Source: Chloroflexota bacterium
Lineage (GTDB): Bacteria > Chloroflexota > Anaerolineae > Anaerolineales > Villigracilaceae
Direction of reading: 5' to 3'
NCBI GenBank assembly: GCA_013388855.1
Contig: JACAEM010000034.1
Coordinates: forward strand, 124,001-188,000
DNA: 64,000 nt
The position numbers and the translations under genes are program-made. Positions 20,511 to 61,134 of the stretch are shown here, one piece after another. The notes beneath the pieces were generated by a model. It was not told the origin of the DNA, searched no databases, and saw only the letters and a list, made by a program, of their open reading frames with translations. Each line of letters opens with the position of its first letter. Position 1 is the first letter of the stretch.

Positions 20511-22142
20511 TTATTCCTTCAGAAGGAAATCGCCATTATTCAACACGCCATCGAGGATCACTTTCACCGCATCAGACTGCAATAGCTTTTCCAGTGAAAA
20601 GGTCTTCAGCCGCGTCTGTGTGGTCCGCACCGAAGGTTCCAGAAAATCGCCAAATGGCAGGGATGTGCGATACAACTGATAATACAAAAATCTCCGCGCG
20701 TTGCGTTTGAACTCAGTGGGGATATCGATTTTTTCAACTACCAAAAATTCTTTTGTCTTTCTTCTCACTTCGTCCACCGTCTGCGGGAAGAACACGGTGG
20801 GATATTGTGTGAAGCGTGCCCTGCCCGCACACAACACTGCCGCGCCCATGATGGATGCTTCCAGCCCGATGGTGGAGTTGTAGATCATCACGAACTTGGA
20901 TTTCTGGATCAACTCATAGGAACTCAACGTCTCGCGCGGACTCACGAAGACGACATTCGGTTCCTTATCCACGCCGCGGCTGGATACCCAGCCTTCGACC
21001 GTCTCACGGCTGGCTTTGCGGACGCGCGTCTCATCGGGGTGGGCACGGATGACGAACAACGTGTCACGATGTTCGCGAATGATCTCATGCACCATATCGA
21101 GCCAGTCGAACATGTCTTCAAAGACGGTGTTGGCATGTGGCTGGCTGGTATCGAAGATGACGTTGGTAAAGATTGGCACGATCTGCTTGAACTGCGCCGC
21201 TTTTTGCAGGAACGATTCGTCAAGCCCCTTCATATCCGCCCAGAATTTGATGCCTGCCATGGTGAAGTCACCTTGGAAACGTTTGGCGAGATAGGCATCC
21301 AGTTTGGCATTTTGGACATCATTGAGTTCAAATTCATCCGGGATGTGGATCGGGTAGGCGGTCGCTTCGCCATCGGTAAAGAATGCGGTGGCGGCTTGCA
21401 GTCCCACCTCGTGGGTCACCACGCGAATGCCGCGCTTTTGGGCGATATAACGGGCGGTCGCTTCGGGGAAGAACTGCCCGTTGAACACGATGACCAGCCT
21501 CGGCTGAGTCCGATCGAGAAAGTCTGAGAATTTCTGTGAGATGTTCCATGCAGACAGGATGTATTCCCGCAAGAGATAGCGCGTATTTTCATTATCCTTG
21601 AGATGATGGATGCGCAGGATCCAGCGAAGTCCGGGCAGGCATAAGGCGCCGAGAGGGAGGTCGTGGTATGTGAAATTCGAGAGTTGATCGACGTTCAAAT
21701 CGCGGATTGCGTTTTCCAACGCGGCGTCGCGGCTGAACTCAAACCAATTCACGCTCGATCTTTGAACCTTCAGACCTTCAACCGTTGACGGCGTTCCCGC
21801 GTACAATGCCTTTGATTGCATCACACACGATCGGCACGGCAATTGCTTTTGTGGGTCGTCGCGATTCGTTCCCAGCACACACTTGCTCATGCCGAAATGA
21901 CAGGCAAAATATGCGACCGGGATTCCCTTCAACCGCAATGCCCACGATGCCAGCAGATGAAAGCCGCTGTTCCAAGAAAGGTCATCGATACCGGTAGAAG
22001 CTTTGAAGAAAACAACCGGTGCGCCGGAAGGATGCGGCTCCCTGTGTGCCACCTTCCGGGCAACAGAAGCAATCTTGAGATTGTTGAGTCTGCGGATGAG
22101 TCCGCGTTTGATCCGTTGGGTGAAGAATTCGCGCAATGCCAT
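20511..22142 (-). CDS. Capsule-polysaccharide-type protein (KpsS/Wzy-independent glycan synthesis-like), uncertain
   Basis: A 543-residue soluble protein without a signal peptide. The C-terminal half (about 330-500) has features of capsule synthesis or Kdo-transferase-type GT-B proteins: VIRAHPDE, a STIGLEA stretch and a GAAVLCAGRARF segment. The middle contains a Cys-rich LPCRSC element. I infer a glycosyltransferase or capsule-assembly function. It is distantly related in plan to the protein at 47216. It overlaps the upstream sulfotransferase by one base (TAATG). Around residues 120-130 the sequence LKVQRSSVN resembles the palindromic repeat described at 41261, so a repeat may have been incorporated. 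Confidence 0.7.
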   Translation of the reverse strand: MALREFFTQRIKRGLIRRLNNLKIASVARKVAHREPHPSGAPVVFFKASTGIDDLSWNSGFHLLASWALRLKGIPVAYFACHFGMSKCVLGTNRDDPQKQLPCRSCVMQSKALYAGTPSTVEGLKVQRSSVNWFEFSRDAALENAIRDLNVDQLSNFTYHDLPLGALCLPGLRWILRIHHLKDNENTRYLLREYILSAWNISQKFSDFLDRTQPRLVIVFNGQFFPEATARYIAQKRGIRVVTHEVGLQAATAFFTDGEATAYPIHIPDEFELNDVQNAKLDAYLAKRFQGDFTMAGIKFWADMKGLDESFLQKAAQFKQIVPIFTNVIFDTSQPHANTVFEDMFDWLDMVHEIIREHRDTLFVIRAHPDETRVRKASRETVEGWVSSRGVDKEPNVVFVSPRETLSSYELIQKSKFVMIYNSTIGLEASIMGAAVLCAGRARFTQYPTVFFPQTVDEVRRKTKEFLVVEKIDIPTEFKRNARRFLYYQLYRTSLPFGDFLEPSVRTTQTRLKTFSLEKLLQSDAVKVILDGVLNNGDFLLKE

Positions 22143-36670: not shown

Positions 36671-36694
36671 ACGAATGGTTTGCAAGTTGACAGA

Positions 36695-36732
36695 TTGAAA
36701 CGTTTGAACGTTCAAACCTGCTAACGTTTCAA
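36695..36732. repeat. Nested palindromic repeat, GTTCAA family (copy 1)
   Basis: A perfect 16-bp palindrome GTTTGAACGTTCAAAC (36702-36717) lies within a larger inverted repeat TTGAAACGTT / AACGTTTCAA (36695-36704, 36723-36732). It spans the junction between two genes and includes the last codons of the SpsF-like gene (ALKR and stop). Translated, one frame gives NVQTFQ, which recurs at other copies. Confidence 0.75.
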
Positions 36733-37536
36733 CGCCCTTTTGTCAATATCCTTCAAAGTCTTATGTTGCACACTTGCATTGATCTTCATCAGTTCGGGTT
36801 CATCGTGGACAAGGTCGAGGACTTCCTTCCATGAAAAATCGTCGCGGCTATTGAAGCGGGAATAGACCTGCCGCATGAATTCCAAATCTTCGGGGGTGTC
36901 CACCGTCCAGCGGTAGTCACCAAAGTCGGTGGGATGATGGAGGAGGGCGATTCTAAATCCGCGAGGGGAGGTTCCCGTTTCCAATTGACGGTTGACCGTT
37001 GCCAGTTGGACGCCTTCGTAAAGGTAGGGCATGACGTGTTCGCGGTGATGAGGTTCTTTTGCCTCCTTCCAGGCACGTTCCAGGGCGGCAAAGGTGCAGG
37101 CTTCGGTATCCAAACCAATCGGATAGGTTCGTGTCCACGGAGGCGGGAGGCGGTTGCAGACGAAGTCATATTCACCCTCGAGGAGGGTATTGACCACATT
37201 ATCAATTAACTCAGGATCAATGACGGGGCAATCGGCGGTAATCCGCACAACCACGTCCGCCTGCGCCTGTTTTGCGGTTTGATAGTAACGATCCAGCACA
37301 TCATATAGATTGCCACGCGTGAAGGGGATGCCGCTCCACTCGCAGTACTCTGCTACGGGGTCGTCGGAGGGGTCGGTCGTGGTGGCGAAGATGGTTTGGG
37401 AAACAGAAGCAGACCGCGAGGTCCGAATGAAGACGCGCTGTAACATGGGCTGCCCGGCAATGTCTGCAAGTATCTTCCCAGGCAGGCGTGAGGAGGACAT
37501 ACGTCCTTGAATGATGGCAATAACGTTTGGCTTCAT
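36721..37536 (-). CDS. SpsF-like cytidylyltransferase family protein
   Basis: A 271-residue nucleotidyltransferase of the CMP-KDO synthetase fold, related to spore-coat SpsF. GRMSSSRLPGK (11-21) is the nucleotide loop, ITADCPVIDP gives the metal site, and YRWTVDTPEDL fits the family's C-terminal DTPED motif. It would activate a sugar acid with CTP. It lies between a peptidase-like gene and a GT; the C-terminal end lies in a palindromic repeat, so the last residues may have been replaced. Sugar unknown. Confidence 0.82.
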   Translation of the reverse strand: MKPNVIAIIQGRMSSSRLPGKILADIAGQPMLQRVFIRTSRSASVSQTIFATTTDPSDDPVAEYCEWSGIPFTRGNLYDVLDRYYQTAKQAQADVVVRITADCPVIDPELIDNVVNTLLEGEYDFVCNRLPPPWTRTYPIGLDTEACTFAALERAWKEAKEPHHREHVMPYLYEGVQLATVNRQLETGTSPRGFRIALLHHPTDFGDYRWTVDTPEDLEFMRQVYSRFNSRDDFSWKEVLDLVHDEPELMKINASVQHKTLKDIDKRALKR

Positions 37537-40690: not shown

Positions 40691-40726
40691 TCTTTTCTCT
40701 GTGTTCTCTGTGCACTCCGTGGTTAA
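40691..40726. repeat. CACAGAG-type repeat at the end of the GT4 gene (copy 2)
   Basis: TTCTCTGTG followed by TTCTCTGTGCACTCCGTGG (40695-40722) repeats the sequence at 37549. The last bases include the TAA of the GT4 gene, so the repeat may define its C-terminus. Confidence 0.55.
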
Positions 40727-41814
40727 CCGCTCTTGATCTTTTCATACGTCTTGAGAAGTTTACCAAAATTCTTTCTCCAATCCGCCCGTTCCTCGGCTGT
40801 CTTTCTCGCCAATTCTCCAACCCTCTTAAATTCTCTCCTCTTCTTTATCGCAAGCAGAATCTTCTCCGCCAGGTCAGCCGCATCGCCGTCGCGAAACAAC
40901 CAGCCGTTGACTCCCTCCTCGATCCATTCCCGGTTGCCCGGAATATCCGACACGAGACACGGCAGTCCGCTCGCCAGCGCCTCCAGCAATGTGACCGACG
41001 TCCCGTCCACGTGCGAGGGCGAGATGTAAAGATCCGCCATGTGATACCAGCGCGGCAAGTCGCGTTGACTCACTTGTCCCCCGAAATGGACTCGTTCCAT
41101 CACGCCGCCGTTCATTAGTATCTGACGGATGTGCGCCCCCTGCGAACCGCCTCCCAGCAGAATGAGATTCACATGCGGGTTCTGAGCCGCCACCTTGACA
41201 AACGCCCTTGCCAGCACATCCACGCCGTAGATGGGTTCCCACGTGCGGCTGCAAAAAAGCGTAAACGTTCGAGCGTTCGAACGTTTAAACGTTTTCAAGT
41301 TGAAATGCTCAAGATCAACACCCCACGGAAACACAATGGTATTTTCAGGGTTCATCCCAAACGCAACCGCCTTCTCGCGCGTGACATTGGCGTCACACGC
41401 GAAAAATGCGCTGCGCTGTAACGTGTAACGCGTAACCCATCGCATCCAGGCGCTTTTATCCGCATCCATCACCAGGTCATATCCCCAGGACATGGCAAGC
41501 AAATGACGGAATCCGCTCAACGCCACCAGAAAGGCGCAATTCTGAATCGGTCCCGCATGGATGAGGTCAGGCTGGATTTCCCGAATGACCCGCCGCAGGT
41601 CGAGGACCAGACGCGGCACGTCGCGCCAGCGGAACTCGTGCCTTCCGCCCGCCCATAAAATCTGCCGCACCTTTTCCGGCACAGGGCGGTCTTCCGTCTG
41701 GCGGTGATTTGCTTCGAGCCGCAAATAGAAAATCTCGTGCTCCGTCTTCGCTAGTGAGGAGAGAAAGCGGTAATCGTGAGGGGTGTAGTTTTTCGAAAAG
41801 TAAATGATCTTCAT
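40723..41814 (-). CDS. GT4 family glycosyltransferase carrying an in-frame repeat
   Basis: A 363-residue GT-B glycosyltransferase (GT4/WbaZ type). GWGVDLEHF-like FPWGVDLEHF marks the end of the N-terminal domain, and LYISPSHVDGTSVTLLEALASG (wrap about 265-285) holds the EX7E nucleotide-sugar site. Between FPWGVDLEHF and FTLFCSRTWEP there is a short stretch, FNLKTFKRSNARTF, whose DNA (41261-41310) is a copy of the palindromic repeat found between genes elsewhere here. The enzyme is otherwise normal in length, so the insertion probably lies in a surface loop. Sugar unknown. Confidence 0.87.
   Translation of the reverse strand: MKIIYFSKNYTPHDYRFLSSLAKTEHEIFYLRLEANHRQTEDRPVPEKVRQILWAGGRHEFRWRDVPRLVLDLRRVIREIQPDLIHAGPIQNCAFLVALSGFRHLLAMSWGYDLVMDADKSAWMRWVTRYTLQRSAFFACDANVTREKAVAFGMNPENTIVFPWGVDLEHFNLKTFKRSNARTFTLFCSRTWEPIYGVDVLARAFVKVAAQNPHVNLILLGGGSQGAHIRQILMNGGVMERVHFGGQVSQRDLPRWYHMADLYISPSHVDGTSVTLLEALASGLPCLVSDIPGNREWIEEGVNGWLFRDGDAADLAEKILLAIKKRREFKRVGELARKTAEERADWRKNFGKLLKTYEKIKSG
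41261..41310 (-). repeat. GTTCAA-family palindromic repeat inside the GT4 coding sequence
   Basis: Contains nested AACGTTCGAA and GTTTAAAC palindromes (41261-41300) and reads FNLKTFKRSN in the GT4 frame. Other copies in the same frame give NVQTFQSVN and NVRTFERSN, so this is the same element translated. It keeps the frame. Confidence 0.7.
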
Positions 41815-41824
41815 GGAAAAATTG

Positions 41825-41864
41825 GTTGGAACGTTCGAAGGTTCGCACGTTCAAACGTTCCAAC
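41825..41864. repeat. GTTCAA-family palindromic repeat (copy 3)
   Basis: GTTGGAACGTT (41825-41835) pairs perfectly with AACGTTCCAAC (41854-41864), with further ACGTTCGAA and CGTTCAAACG elements between. It fills the 77-bp gap between the second NeuB gene and the GT4 gene, right upstream of the GT4 start. Confidence 0.7.
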
Positions 41865-41891
41865 TTGCCGACCTGTCAATGTGCAAACGGC

Positions 41892-44404: not shown

Positions 44405-44485
44405 TCGTAAGGTAGACACGTAGACAAGTACACAAGTAGACACGTGTTTCCGTGTGTACCTGTCTACCTGTGTACTTGTTTGCCT
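44405..44485. repeat. GTAGACAC / GTGTACTTG palindrome of short units
   Basis: About 80 bp of near-repetitive 10-11 base units (GTAGACACGTAGACAAGTAC, ACAAGTAGACACG) followed by a reverse set (CGTGTGTACCTGTCTACC, TGTGTACTTG). The two halves form an imperfect inverted repeat around 44440. It fills the junction between the PseB-like and RmlD-like genes; it resembles no other repeat in the window. Confidence 0.7.
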
Positions 44486-51055: not shown

Positions 51056-51100
51056 CCAGGTTACCAGATTGGAATGTTTGAACGTTCAAGCCTGGTGACC
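51056..51100. repeat. GTTCAA-family palindromic repeat (copy 4)
   Basis: A perfect TTGAACGTTCAA palindrome (51078-51089) sits inside a CCAGG-to-CCTGG flanked element between the Wzm and Fcl-like genes. In one frame it reads NVQTFQSGN, like the copies at 36695 and 41261. Confidence 0.7.
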
Positions 51101-51102
51101 TT

Positions 51103-52178
<1,076 letters not shown>

Positions 52179-60184: not shown

Positions 60185-61134
60185 AACCGGTTCACTGCCT
60201 CCTGCAAGCGGACATAATCGGCATCATCGATCTTTTTGCCGGTTGAATACGGGAAGTTCTCCGGCACCTCGTTCCGAACGGACACATCCACGCCGCGGCT
60301 TTCAAAGAACCGGGCAATCTCATCCATGGTTCCGCGCGTGTCCTCGCACAAACGGCGGTATGAAATTCGCAGGAAACGCTCCGGCCCCAGGCGCTGAATA
60401 TCCTCGTCGATCTGTCTGTATATGTAATAGACCTGTTCGACCACCTGTTCCCAATAAGGATGCGCCTTGATCTCATCGATCTGCCTGGGAGGGACGGAAA
60501 ACCAATCGGTTTTGTTGCCATTCCGTTTCACGCGTCCCTCCAGGATGGATTGCGCCGTATCCACTTCATCGCGCATACACACAAGAAACACCGCCTGCGG
60601 AAATGCCTCTGCAATCGGCGCAATACGCATTGAATTGTAGGTATTCTTGAACAGCATCGGCGCTTTGAACTTTTTGGAGATACCAACTACCTGCCGGCGC
60701 AATTCCTGGATGGACTGGGGCTTTGTTGCTCCCGGCGGGACATAGACATGCTCTCCGCGCGGGAACCAACGATACCAAAACTCCCCCGCCTCGCTCGGAC
60801 CGAAAACCGAATCCGTCCTCCCATAATTTGACGCGTACCCAATCTGTTTTTTCGCCAGGAAAACCGACAGGAACTTCGATAGCCAAATCCCGACCAGCGG
60901 CGCGGCATACAACCGTGACGCGACATTATCCAGAAAAACGAAATTGAAACGATTCACCAGCACCTGATACAACAACGTTGTCCCGGAGCGAGGCGGACCG
61001 ATGATGAAGACAGGACACGCAAAACGATCATCGTCAGGCGCTGCGCTCCCCAACAGGAATTGCTCCAACGGTGTGAGGAGCCATTTCATCAACAGATCTG
61101 CAACACGTCCCAACGTTTTAGAAATTCTCTTCAT
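60172..61134 (-). CDS. Sulfotransferase family protein
   Basis: A 320-residue sulfotransferase of the Sulfotransfer_3 type. GPPRSGTT (46-53) is the 5'-PAPS loop; the 3'-phosphate region is CMRDEVDTAQSI, with Arg and Ser conserved though shifted. A long C-terminal helix region ends KKIDDADYV, unlike the GYEKD ending of others here. It lies in the flippase operon, overlapping the hexapeptide acyltransferase by 17 bp and the FemAB-like gene by 13 bp. ATG 61134 (MKRISKTL) is chosen since earlier starts would run deeper into the neighbour. Acceptor unknown. Confidence 0.82.
   Translation of the reverse strand: MKRISKTLGRVADLLMKWLLTPLEQFLLGSAAPDDDRFACPVFIIGPPRSGTTLLYQVLVNRFNFVFLDNVASRLYAAPLVGIWLSKFLSVFLAKKQIGYASNYGRTDSVFGPSEAGEFWYRWFPRGEHVYVPPGATKPQSIQELRRQVVGISKKFKAPMLFKNTYNSMRIAPIAEAFPQAVFLVCMRDEVDTAQSILEGRVKRNGNKTDWFSVPPRQIDEIKAHPYWEQVVEQVYYIYRQIDEDIQRLGPERFLRISYRRLCEDTRGTMDEIARFFESRGVDVSVRNEVPENFPYSTGKKIDDADYVRLQEAVNRLWKP

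Follow-up and report, generated by a model that had tools for sequence, protein, structure and literature searches.

Introduction

Long simple sequence repeats with units of 5-11 nt, heptanucleotide repeats among them, are a known bacterial class (Mrazek 2007 as cited in PMC4679880; PMC4692102). GGGAATC repeats in Xanthomonas and Nostoc are described in the part of PMC4692102 that treats them. Mrazek proposed that 7 nt corresponds to the polymerase contact length (cited in PMC4679880). Units whose length divides by three are the most likely ones in coding regions, and repeats are rarer in mid-gene, according to the sections of PMC4679880 and PMC4692102 on this point. The TAACTGA repeat has stops in every frame on one strand, and the other strand is open and reads LSVISYQ, as given in the relevant passage of PMC4679880.

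In this study, a tandem array within a glycosyltransferase gene of an uncultured Anaerolineales bacterium was analysed. The window is the whole stretch of DNA analysed (64,000 nucleotides), and its own genome (G000) comprises 4.03 Mb in 46 contigs. Taking two statements jointly, we lean on balance towards the following view. The GT4 segment is part of a pool of 7/8-nt tandem arrays (long simple sequence repeats) in many genomes of the family, and such arrays, with their period of 7-8 nt, probably arose when slippage or a template switch wrote them over resident DNA, with selection keeping the tolerated copies.

The GT4 gene and its linker array

The host gene lies in a cluster with NeuB-like, cytidylyltransferase-like and RmlD-like neighbours. 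It contains two arrays:

40723-41814, minus strand: GT4 glycosyltransferase gene, host of the array, 363 aa (P0001), assigned from Pfam, an AF2 model and Foldseek
41256-41312, minus strand: AACGTTYR octamer array in the linker joining the two GT-B domains of GT4, 12/14 matches at lag 8
41416-41438, minus strand: second array in the GT4 gene, 7-periodic, encoding WVTRYTLQ; the protein sequence of this segment is common to array-free homologues

Pfam places Glyco_transf_4 at residues 16-169 and Glycos_transf_1 at residues 182-338. The AF2 model has a pLDDT of 92.5, and the best Foldseek matches were MshA and BshA. Model confidence is lowest, at 73, in the block of residues 171-180, which is coil. 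The loop is weakly conserved. In the gene's own frame, the array at 41256-41312 is translated as NLKTFKRSNARTF. The best palindrome in it has 12/13 pairs, at 41262-41287. This palindrome is apparent, because AACGTTCG on rotation is its own reverse complement. An earlier sequence-only reading had described a palindromic intergenic repeat translated within GT4. That repeat exists and is read in frame, although the DNA is a tandem array of 8-nt period rather than a palindromic element as such.

Further arrays were found in the window:

36683-36739, no strand assigned: AACGTT octamer array at the junction of two cluster genes, 10/14 at lag 8
41822-41878, no strand assigned: AACGTT octamer array between the GT4 start and the NeuB-like gene, 11/14 at lag 8, palindrome with 17/20 pairs
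44410-44479, no strand assigned: two arrays, GTAGACAM and TGTGTACC, of octamer units other than AACGTTYR, at the 5' end of the RmlD-like gene
51057-51105, no strand assigned: degenerate weak copy, intergenic, 9/14 at lag 8

The arrays GTAGACAM and TGTGTACC are partly complementary, and a hairpin is possible. Related copies had been claimed near 36695 and 41825, and both correspond to arrays listed above. The copy claimed at 51056 is present but weaker than stated. A fourth candidate, LKVQRSSVN at about 21755-21790, did not hold up: it has 10/14 at lag 8, a level that 4% of random 71-nt windows drawn from this sequence reach at lag 7/8.

Variation of the linker among relatives

GT4 orthologues were drawn from 61 genomes and 58 named Anaerolineales loci, with membership of the family (f1) assigned by us to named loci on identity. 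ORFs were chosen longest-first without a gene caller, and L067 and L116 fell outside the loop set since they have no PWG motif. The 49 distinct f1 loops had self-match values of 0.475 at lag 7, 0.425 at lag 14 and 0.330 at lag 8. Codon-shuffled loops gave 0.27-0.29, and shuffling abolished the lag-7 signal. The lag profile was flat in 36 GT4 orthologues from other families. With at least 11/14 matches at lag 7 or 8 as the threshold, 31/49 f1 loops carried arrays (lag 7 in 24, lag 8 in 7) and 18/49 were array-free. No loop of the 49 reached 11/14 at control lags 5, 6, 9, 10 or 11, and one each did so at 4 and 12. A single period of 8 throughout was considered and dropped, as the lag scan shows 7 to be commoner.

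The units differ among relatives and include AACGTTYR, AATCGTA-like, GAAAGAG, GTCCATC, GGCAGAA, ACTGATC and others. The unit labels, which we assigned ourselves, change at least 20 times on a GT4 gene tree built by a quick method from 46 f1 rows with the loop excluded, in which 17/49 inner branches have support below 80; L054, L085 and L108 were left out as truncated. No homologue was found with an FKRSN-like segment but without the repeat family, the case that the sequence-only reading had named as refuting; L017, L033, L034 and L070, the relatives with such loops, carry octamer DNA themselves.

Outside the window's genus, array loops (n = 18) were 14-29 aa long with a median of 15, and array-free loops (n = 17) were 14-40 aa long with a median of 16. 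Inside the genus, GT4 loops ranged from 15 to 42 residues. The loop end of L043 was misplaced by the pattern, and its length of 23 is unreliable. The G000 linker has 15 residues, the same as array-free family members, and therefore no insertion is visible there. The gap that had been expected in GT4 homologues at the repeat segment is absent at the G000 site. The loops of L020, L046 and L047 (from G007, G014 and G005) and of L078 also hold a different element without the 7-nt period. Its peptides include AALRLSKGG, RPEPAEG and DALSLSKG, and its DNA resembles CCCTGAGGCTCTCGAAGGG.

Arrays in other genes and genomes

In 326 kb of conserved genes from f1 loci, 71 arrays were found at lag 7, 9 at lag 8 and 27 at lag 14, and each remaining lag up to 13 gave 0-4. 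Conserved genes of other families (198 kb) gave one array at lag 7 and one at lag 8. The excess of lags 7 and 8 over control lags agrees with the tandem period of long simple sequence repeats. The arrays are roughly 20-60 nt long and have many different units and no fixed ends or length. Their units are common to coding and intergenic DNA.

Within 8/21 gene clusters, 17 interior sites were recognised, 12 of them in at least two species. Hypervariable linkers make up part of these sites. Elsewhere the segment is constrained, as with TRYTL in GT4 and DRITNYVLRN in a DUF4910/M28-like protein: the protein of array-free relatives is similar there, but its DNA is non-periodic. The identical peptides ITNYVLRNT, KERGKKK and LRPSTFDL in unrelated proteins are repeat translations, and this cautions against calling them shared motifs.

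The unit at one site differs between genomes. The photolyase site carries AACGTT in G000, AATTACC in G007 and an AACCTT-like unit in G001. Its aligned length is 111 nt in 9/12 orthologues, 117 in G007, 108 in G005 and 99 in G003. The photolyase gene itself is patchy and was present in 7/23 f1 genomes searched. The MetH-like linker has AACGTT in G000 versus AATTACC in G007, at 92% protein identity. Among 30 transketolase orthologues, G000 and G021 had clear arrays and G009 a weaker one.

G011, a single-contig genome, is array-rich: 54 lag-7 arrays in 400 kb, 34 of them deep in ORFs by our own cut. The outgroup G057 had three arrays, every one intergenic. An array followed by its own inverted unit, forming a hairpin, was seen at L060:183-236, L062:14136-14188 and offsets 60467-60528 of the G011 stretch examined; the second lies inside an ORF and is translated as ESKVKSRRSDLRPVTFDI.

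G000 and G025 stand out little in the plain lag scan, and the scan of G000 alone would not have revealed the effect. In 464 kb of G000, lags 7 and 8 gave 9 and 13 arrays, the codon-multiple lags 6, 9 and 12 gave 12, 8 and 8, and lags 4, 5, 10, 11 and 13 gave 1-3. In 200 kb of G025, lags 7 and 9 gave 6 arrays each. G000 was also searched with a pattern of three AACGTTYR units allowing up to 3 mismatches, with the reversed pattern as the control. There were 34 matches versus 2 for the control, which is above chance. Because this pattern almost equals its reverse complement, the 34 minus-strand matches fall at identical places. The matches represent 17 distinct places, all of which were inspected. 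Four lie well inside genes, are read in frame, and fall at or within gaps separating Pfam domains (gene names are from Pfam):

GT4, array at about residues 171-184: flanking Pfam domains end at 169 and start at 182
DNA photolyase, array at about residues 236-250: flanking Pfam domains end at 158 and start at 255
Transketolase, array at about residues 529-542: flanking Pfam domains end at 532 and start at 546
MetH-like, array at about residues 198-211: flanking Pfam domains end at 134 and start at 255

The claim that an intergenic repeat occurs in coding sequence stands for GT4 and three other genes, and the insertion that it implied is not supported. Every deep copy is in the open orientation, in a small sample (n = 4). 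As 7 and 8 are not multiples of 3, an array encodes an identical cyclic peptide whichever of the three frames is read. An open unit is therefore tolerable in any frame, and frame preference does not discriminate. Only the strand matters for readability, because units like AACGTTCA have TGA on the opposite strand.

Unit vocabulary and genome pool

The 54 lag-7 arrays of G011 fall into 35 unit classes. Identical unit pairs number 33, whereas random genomic 7-mers give 2.2 and shuffled units 4.4. A set of 120 arrays was taken from other species and includes non-independent orthologous sites; 57 of them match one of the 29 unit classes that G011 has outside the syntenic block, versus 10.1 (maximum 19) after shuffling. 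The units are drawn from a limited vocabulary common to genes and species, which suggests exchange between arrays.

AATTACC arrays numbered 143 in G007, 93 in G118, 56 in G014 and 19 in G000, and none were found at one mismatch in 103/121 genomes of the order. A handful of genomes from separate genera (G007, G014 and G118; f4/g23 genomes) carry greatly expanded sets of this unit, which is almost missing in their relatives.

Linker units were also compared with the arrays of their own genomes, with labels set after the loops had been inspected and P values uncorrected for kinship. On these terms, AATCG-type loops sit in genomes rich in AATCG arrays (10 vs 10 genomes, P 0.0009), also within the genus (9 vs 5, P 0.009). 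The AACGTT test gave P 0.038 (4 vs 12 genomes; 16/18 used, G003 and G017 having no close GT4 orthologue), and GAAAGAG showed no effect (P 0.19). The linker unit thus tends to be abundant in its own genome for two units of three. Loop units were not associated with those of flanking arrays within 10 kb at 20 loci (8 observed, 7.35 expected, P 0.46).

Resident codons matching the start of an array were found in array-free relatives, namely QNVPTL in transketolase, RSNV in the MetH-like gene and TRYTL in GT4. The seeds in transketolase and the MetH-like gene suggest that local slippage starts some arrays. Purely local slippage would need a chance seed in resident codons and no exchange among loci, with 7 nt as the polymerase contact length. 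These seeds and the dominance of period 7 agree with it, but the unit sharing given above, within G011 and across species, speaks against it. Simple slippage would also shift length by 7 or 8 and disrupt frames. We consider this account unlikely.

Length of array-bearing proteins

Copying over resident DNA, the reading that we prefer, should be compared with insertion. Of 68 array copies at the 17 interior sites, 38 had the median length of array-free family members and 51 were within 2 residues of it. None was more than 2 residues shorter. In the other 17 copies, among them most of the GT4 loops from the window's genus, the protein is longer by as many as 26 residues. A second comparison used three pairs of related loci with 80-87% nucleotide identity, in which 11/32 arrays had no anchors. 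An equal-length counterpart, array-bearing or not, was found for 13/14 arrays in ORFs and for 0/7 arrays outside ORFs. The seven non-coding pairs differed by 42, 41, -101, -50, 61, 14 and 10 nt, of which 14 and 42 are multiples of 7. The data indicate that coding arrays mostly stand in place of existing codons and do not add length. No overwriting event was caught between nearly identical genomes, so one-step replacement is what we infer. Stepwise insertion and deletion under length selection would look alike.

These lengths bear on the proposal of the sequence-only reading that a mobile palindromic element had been inserted in frame, as in Rickettsia. One repeat does have intergenic and genic copies, all four deep copies are open, and GT4 loops in the genus reach 42 residues. 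An inverted partner within 60 bp after the array was found for 9/54 arrays in G011, versus 0-3 in 20 controls. However, array-free homologues have no gap at the G000 site, and most coding copies are length-neutral. The arrays also lack fixed ends and length, and many unrelated units have only the period in common. We therefore regard a mobile element as improbable.

Position of arrays relative to genes

Another four of the 17 AACGTTYR places in G000 adjoin or overlap a stop codon (biotin carrier, MaoC, NuoF-like and RadC), and two lie directly before likely starts (P450 and RecR). The remaining places are intergenic or within ORFs taken as spurious. Octamer arrays overlapping stop codons or just after them, in a gene-end-like position, were recorded in G000 at C24:79586, C24:80074, C29:17256 and C36:59790.

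The copies at stops and starts, and the arrays in inverted pairs, would be consistent with arrays kept for a role in DNA or RNA, such as terminator-like hairpins, protein binding or regulation, with coding copies as spill-over. The unit at one place varies between species, however, and such a role seems very improbable. It is hardly credible that the GT4 segment is an ordinary hypervariable linker with biased codons, its periodicity a by-product of low-complexity or charged peptides: the loop is weakly conserved coil and 18/49 f1 loops are array-free, but codon shuffling abolishes the lag-7 signal, 7 is not a multiple of 3, and the same units are intergenic.

Proposed origin of the arrays

We return to the copying of arrays over resident DNA. 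The observed period, recurrence at fixed codon positions, differing units per position, mostly kept length and common vocabulary would be explained if replication or repair re-copied a template of 7-8 nt by slippage and wrote the repeat over resident DNA. Alternatively, a template switch to another array may supply the repeat. Selection would then retain the copies that stay open, keep length and remain functional, in interdomain linkers. It would also retain arrays whose peptide resembles the resident one, for example TRYTL and VPTFE. The abundant octamer AACGTTYR would thus have entered four G000 genes.

We know of no cellular function for such arrays. Inside proteins, they most likely have no role beyond that of a tolerated linker. 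More tentatively, a lineage process might write genome-specific 7- or 8-nt repeats often and length-neutrally. The linkers of photolyase, transketolase, the MetH-like protein and GT4 would then be continually rewritten with the abundant unit, and a period yielding the same peptide in every frame would make this survivable. We find this stronger version possible and somewhat doubtful.

If the proposed origin is true, linkers across a bacterial family have been rewritten by non-mobile repeats and form a natural record of tolerance for arbitrary peptides. It would also point to an undescribed mutational process with a step of 7-8 nt.

Comparison with known repeat systems

Among the listed titles and abstract openings, none described arrays of this kind in coding DNA of Anaerolineales, a weak indication that no description exists, and none described many-unit, length-neutral, recurrent replacement inside conserved enzymes.

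The arrays resemble long simple sequence repeats, as characterised in parts of PMC4679880 and PMC4692102, in being short tandem arrays in which 7 nt prevails, dispersed, lineage-patchy and intergenic. Unlike the repeats described there, many units of one period occur here in one genome. The present arrays also differ in recurring at given codon positions well inside conserved enzymes, mostly with no change of length and with units that vary between relatives.

The TAACTGA repeats of Beggiatoaceae and cyanobacteria are likewise heptamer direct repeats, and some of them lie in ORFs (PMC4679880). They have one fixed unit, in contrast to the arrays here, and related heptamers are rarely or never repeated in the account of that source. 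Their copies in ORFs are mostly at protein ends, with no replacement shown in the part of PMC4679880 concerned, whereas many of those here lie deep and mostly keep the protein length.

Rickettsia palindromic elements share with the present arrays an intergenic repeat that is also translated in frame in unrelated genes (PMC10969869). In the portion of PMC10969869 describing them, these elements are inserted, about 150 bp long, and have a conserved peptide per family, whereas the arrays here are short, many-unit and mostly length-neutral. The suggested Rickettsia parallel fails on insertion, given the G000 linker of 15 aa and the 51/68 coding copies within 2 residues, with 17 copies longer. It also fails on size and peptide, since the arrays of roughly 20-60 nt have many units.

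The selfish palindromic repeats of Volvox organelles are similar as short palindromes that fill intergenic DNA (PMC2670323). They occur almost only in noncoding DNA, and the description taken from PMC2670323 gives them no unit of 7 or 8 nt, whereas the present arrays occupy coding DNA too. The repeat class is already known, and its behaviour in coding DNA appears to be new.
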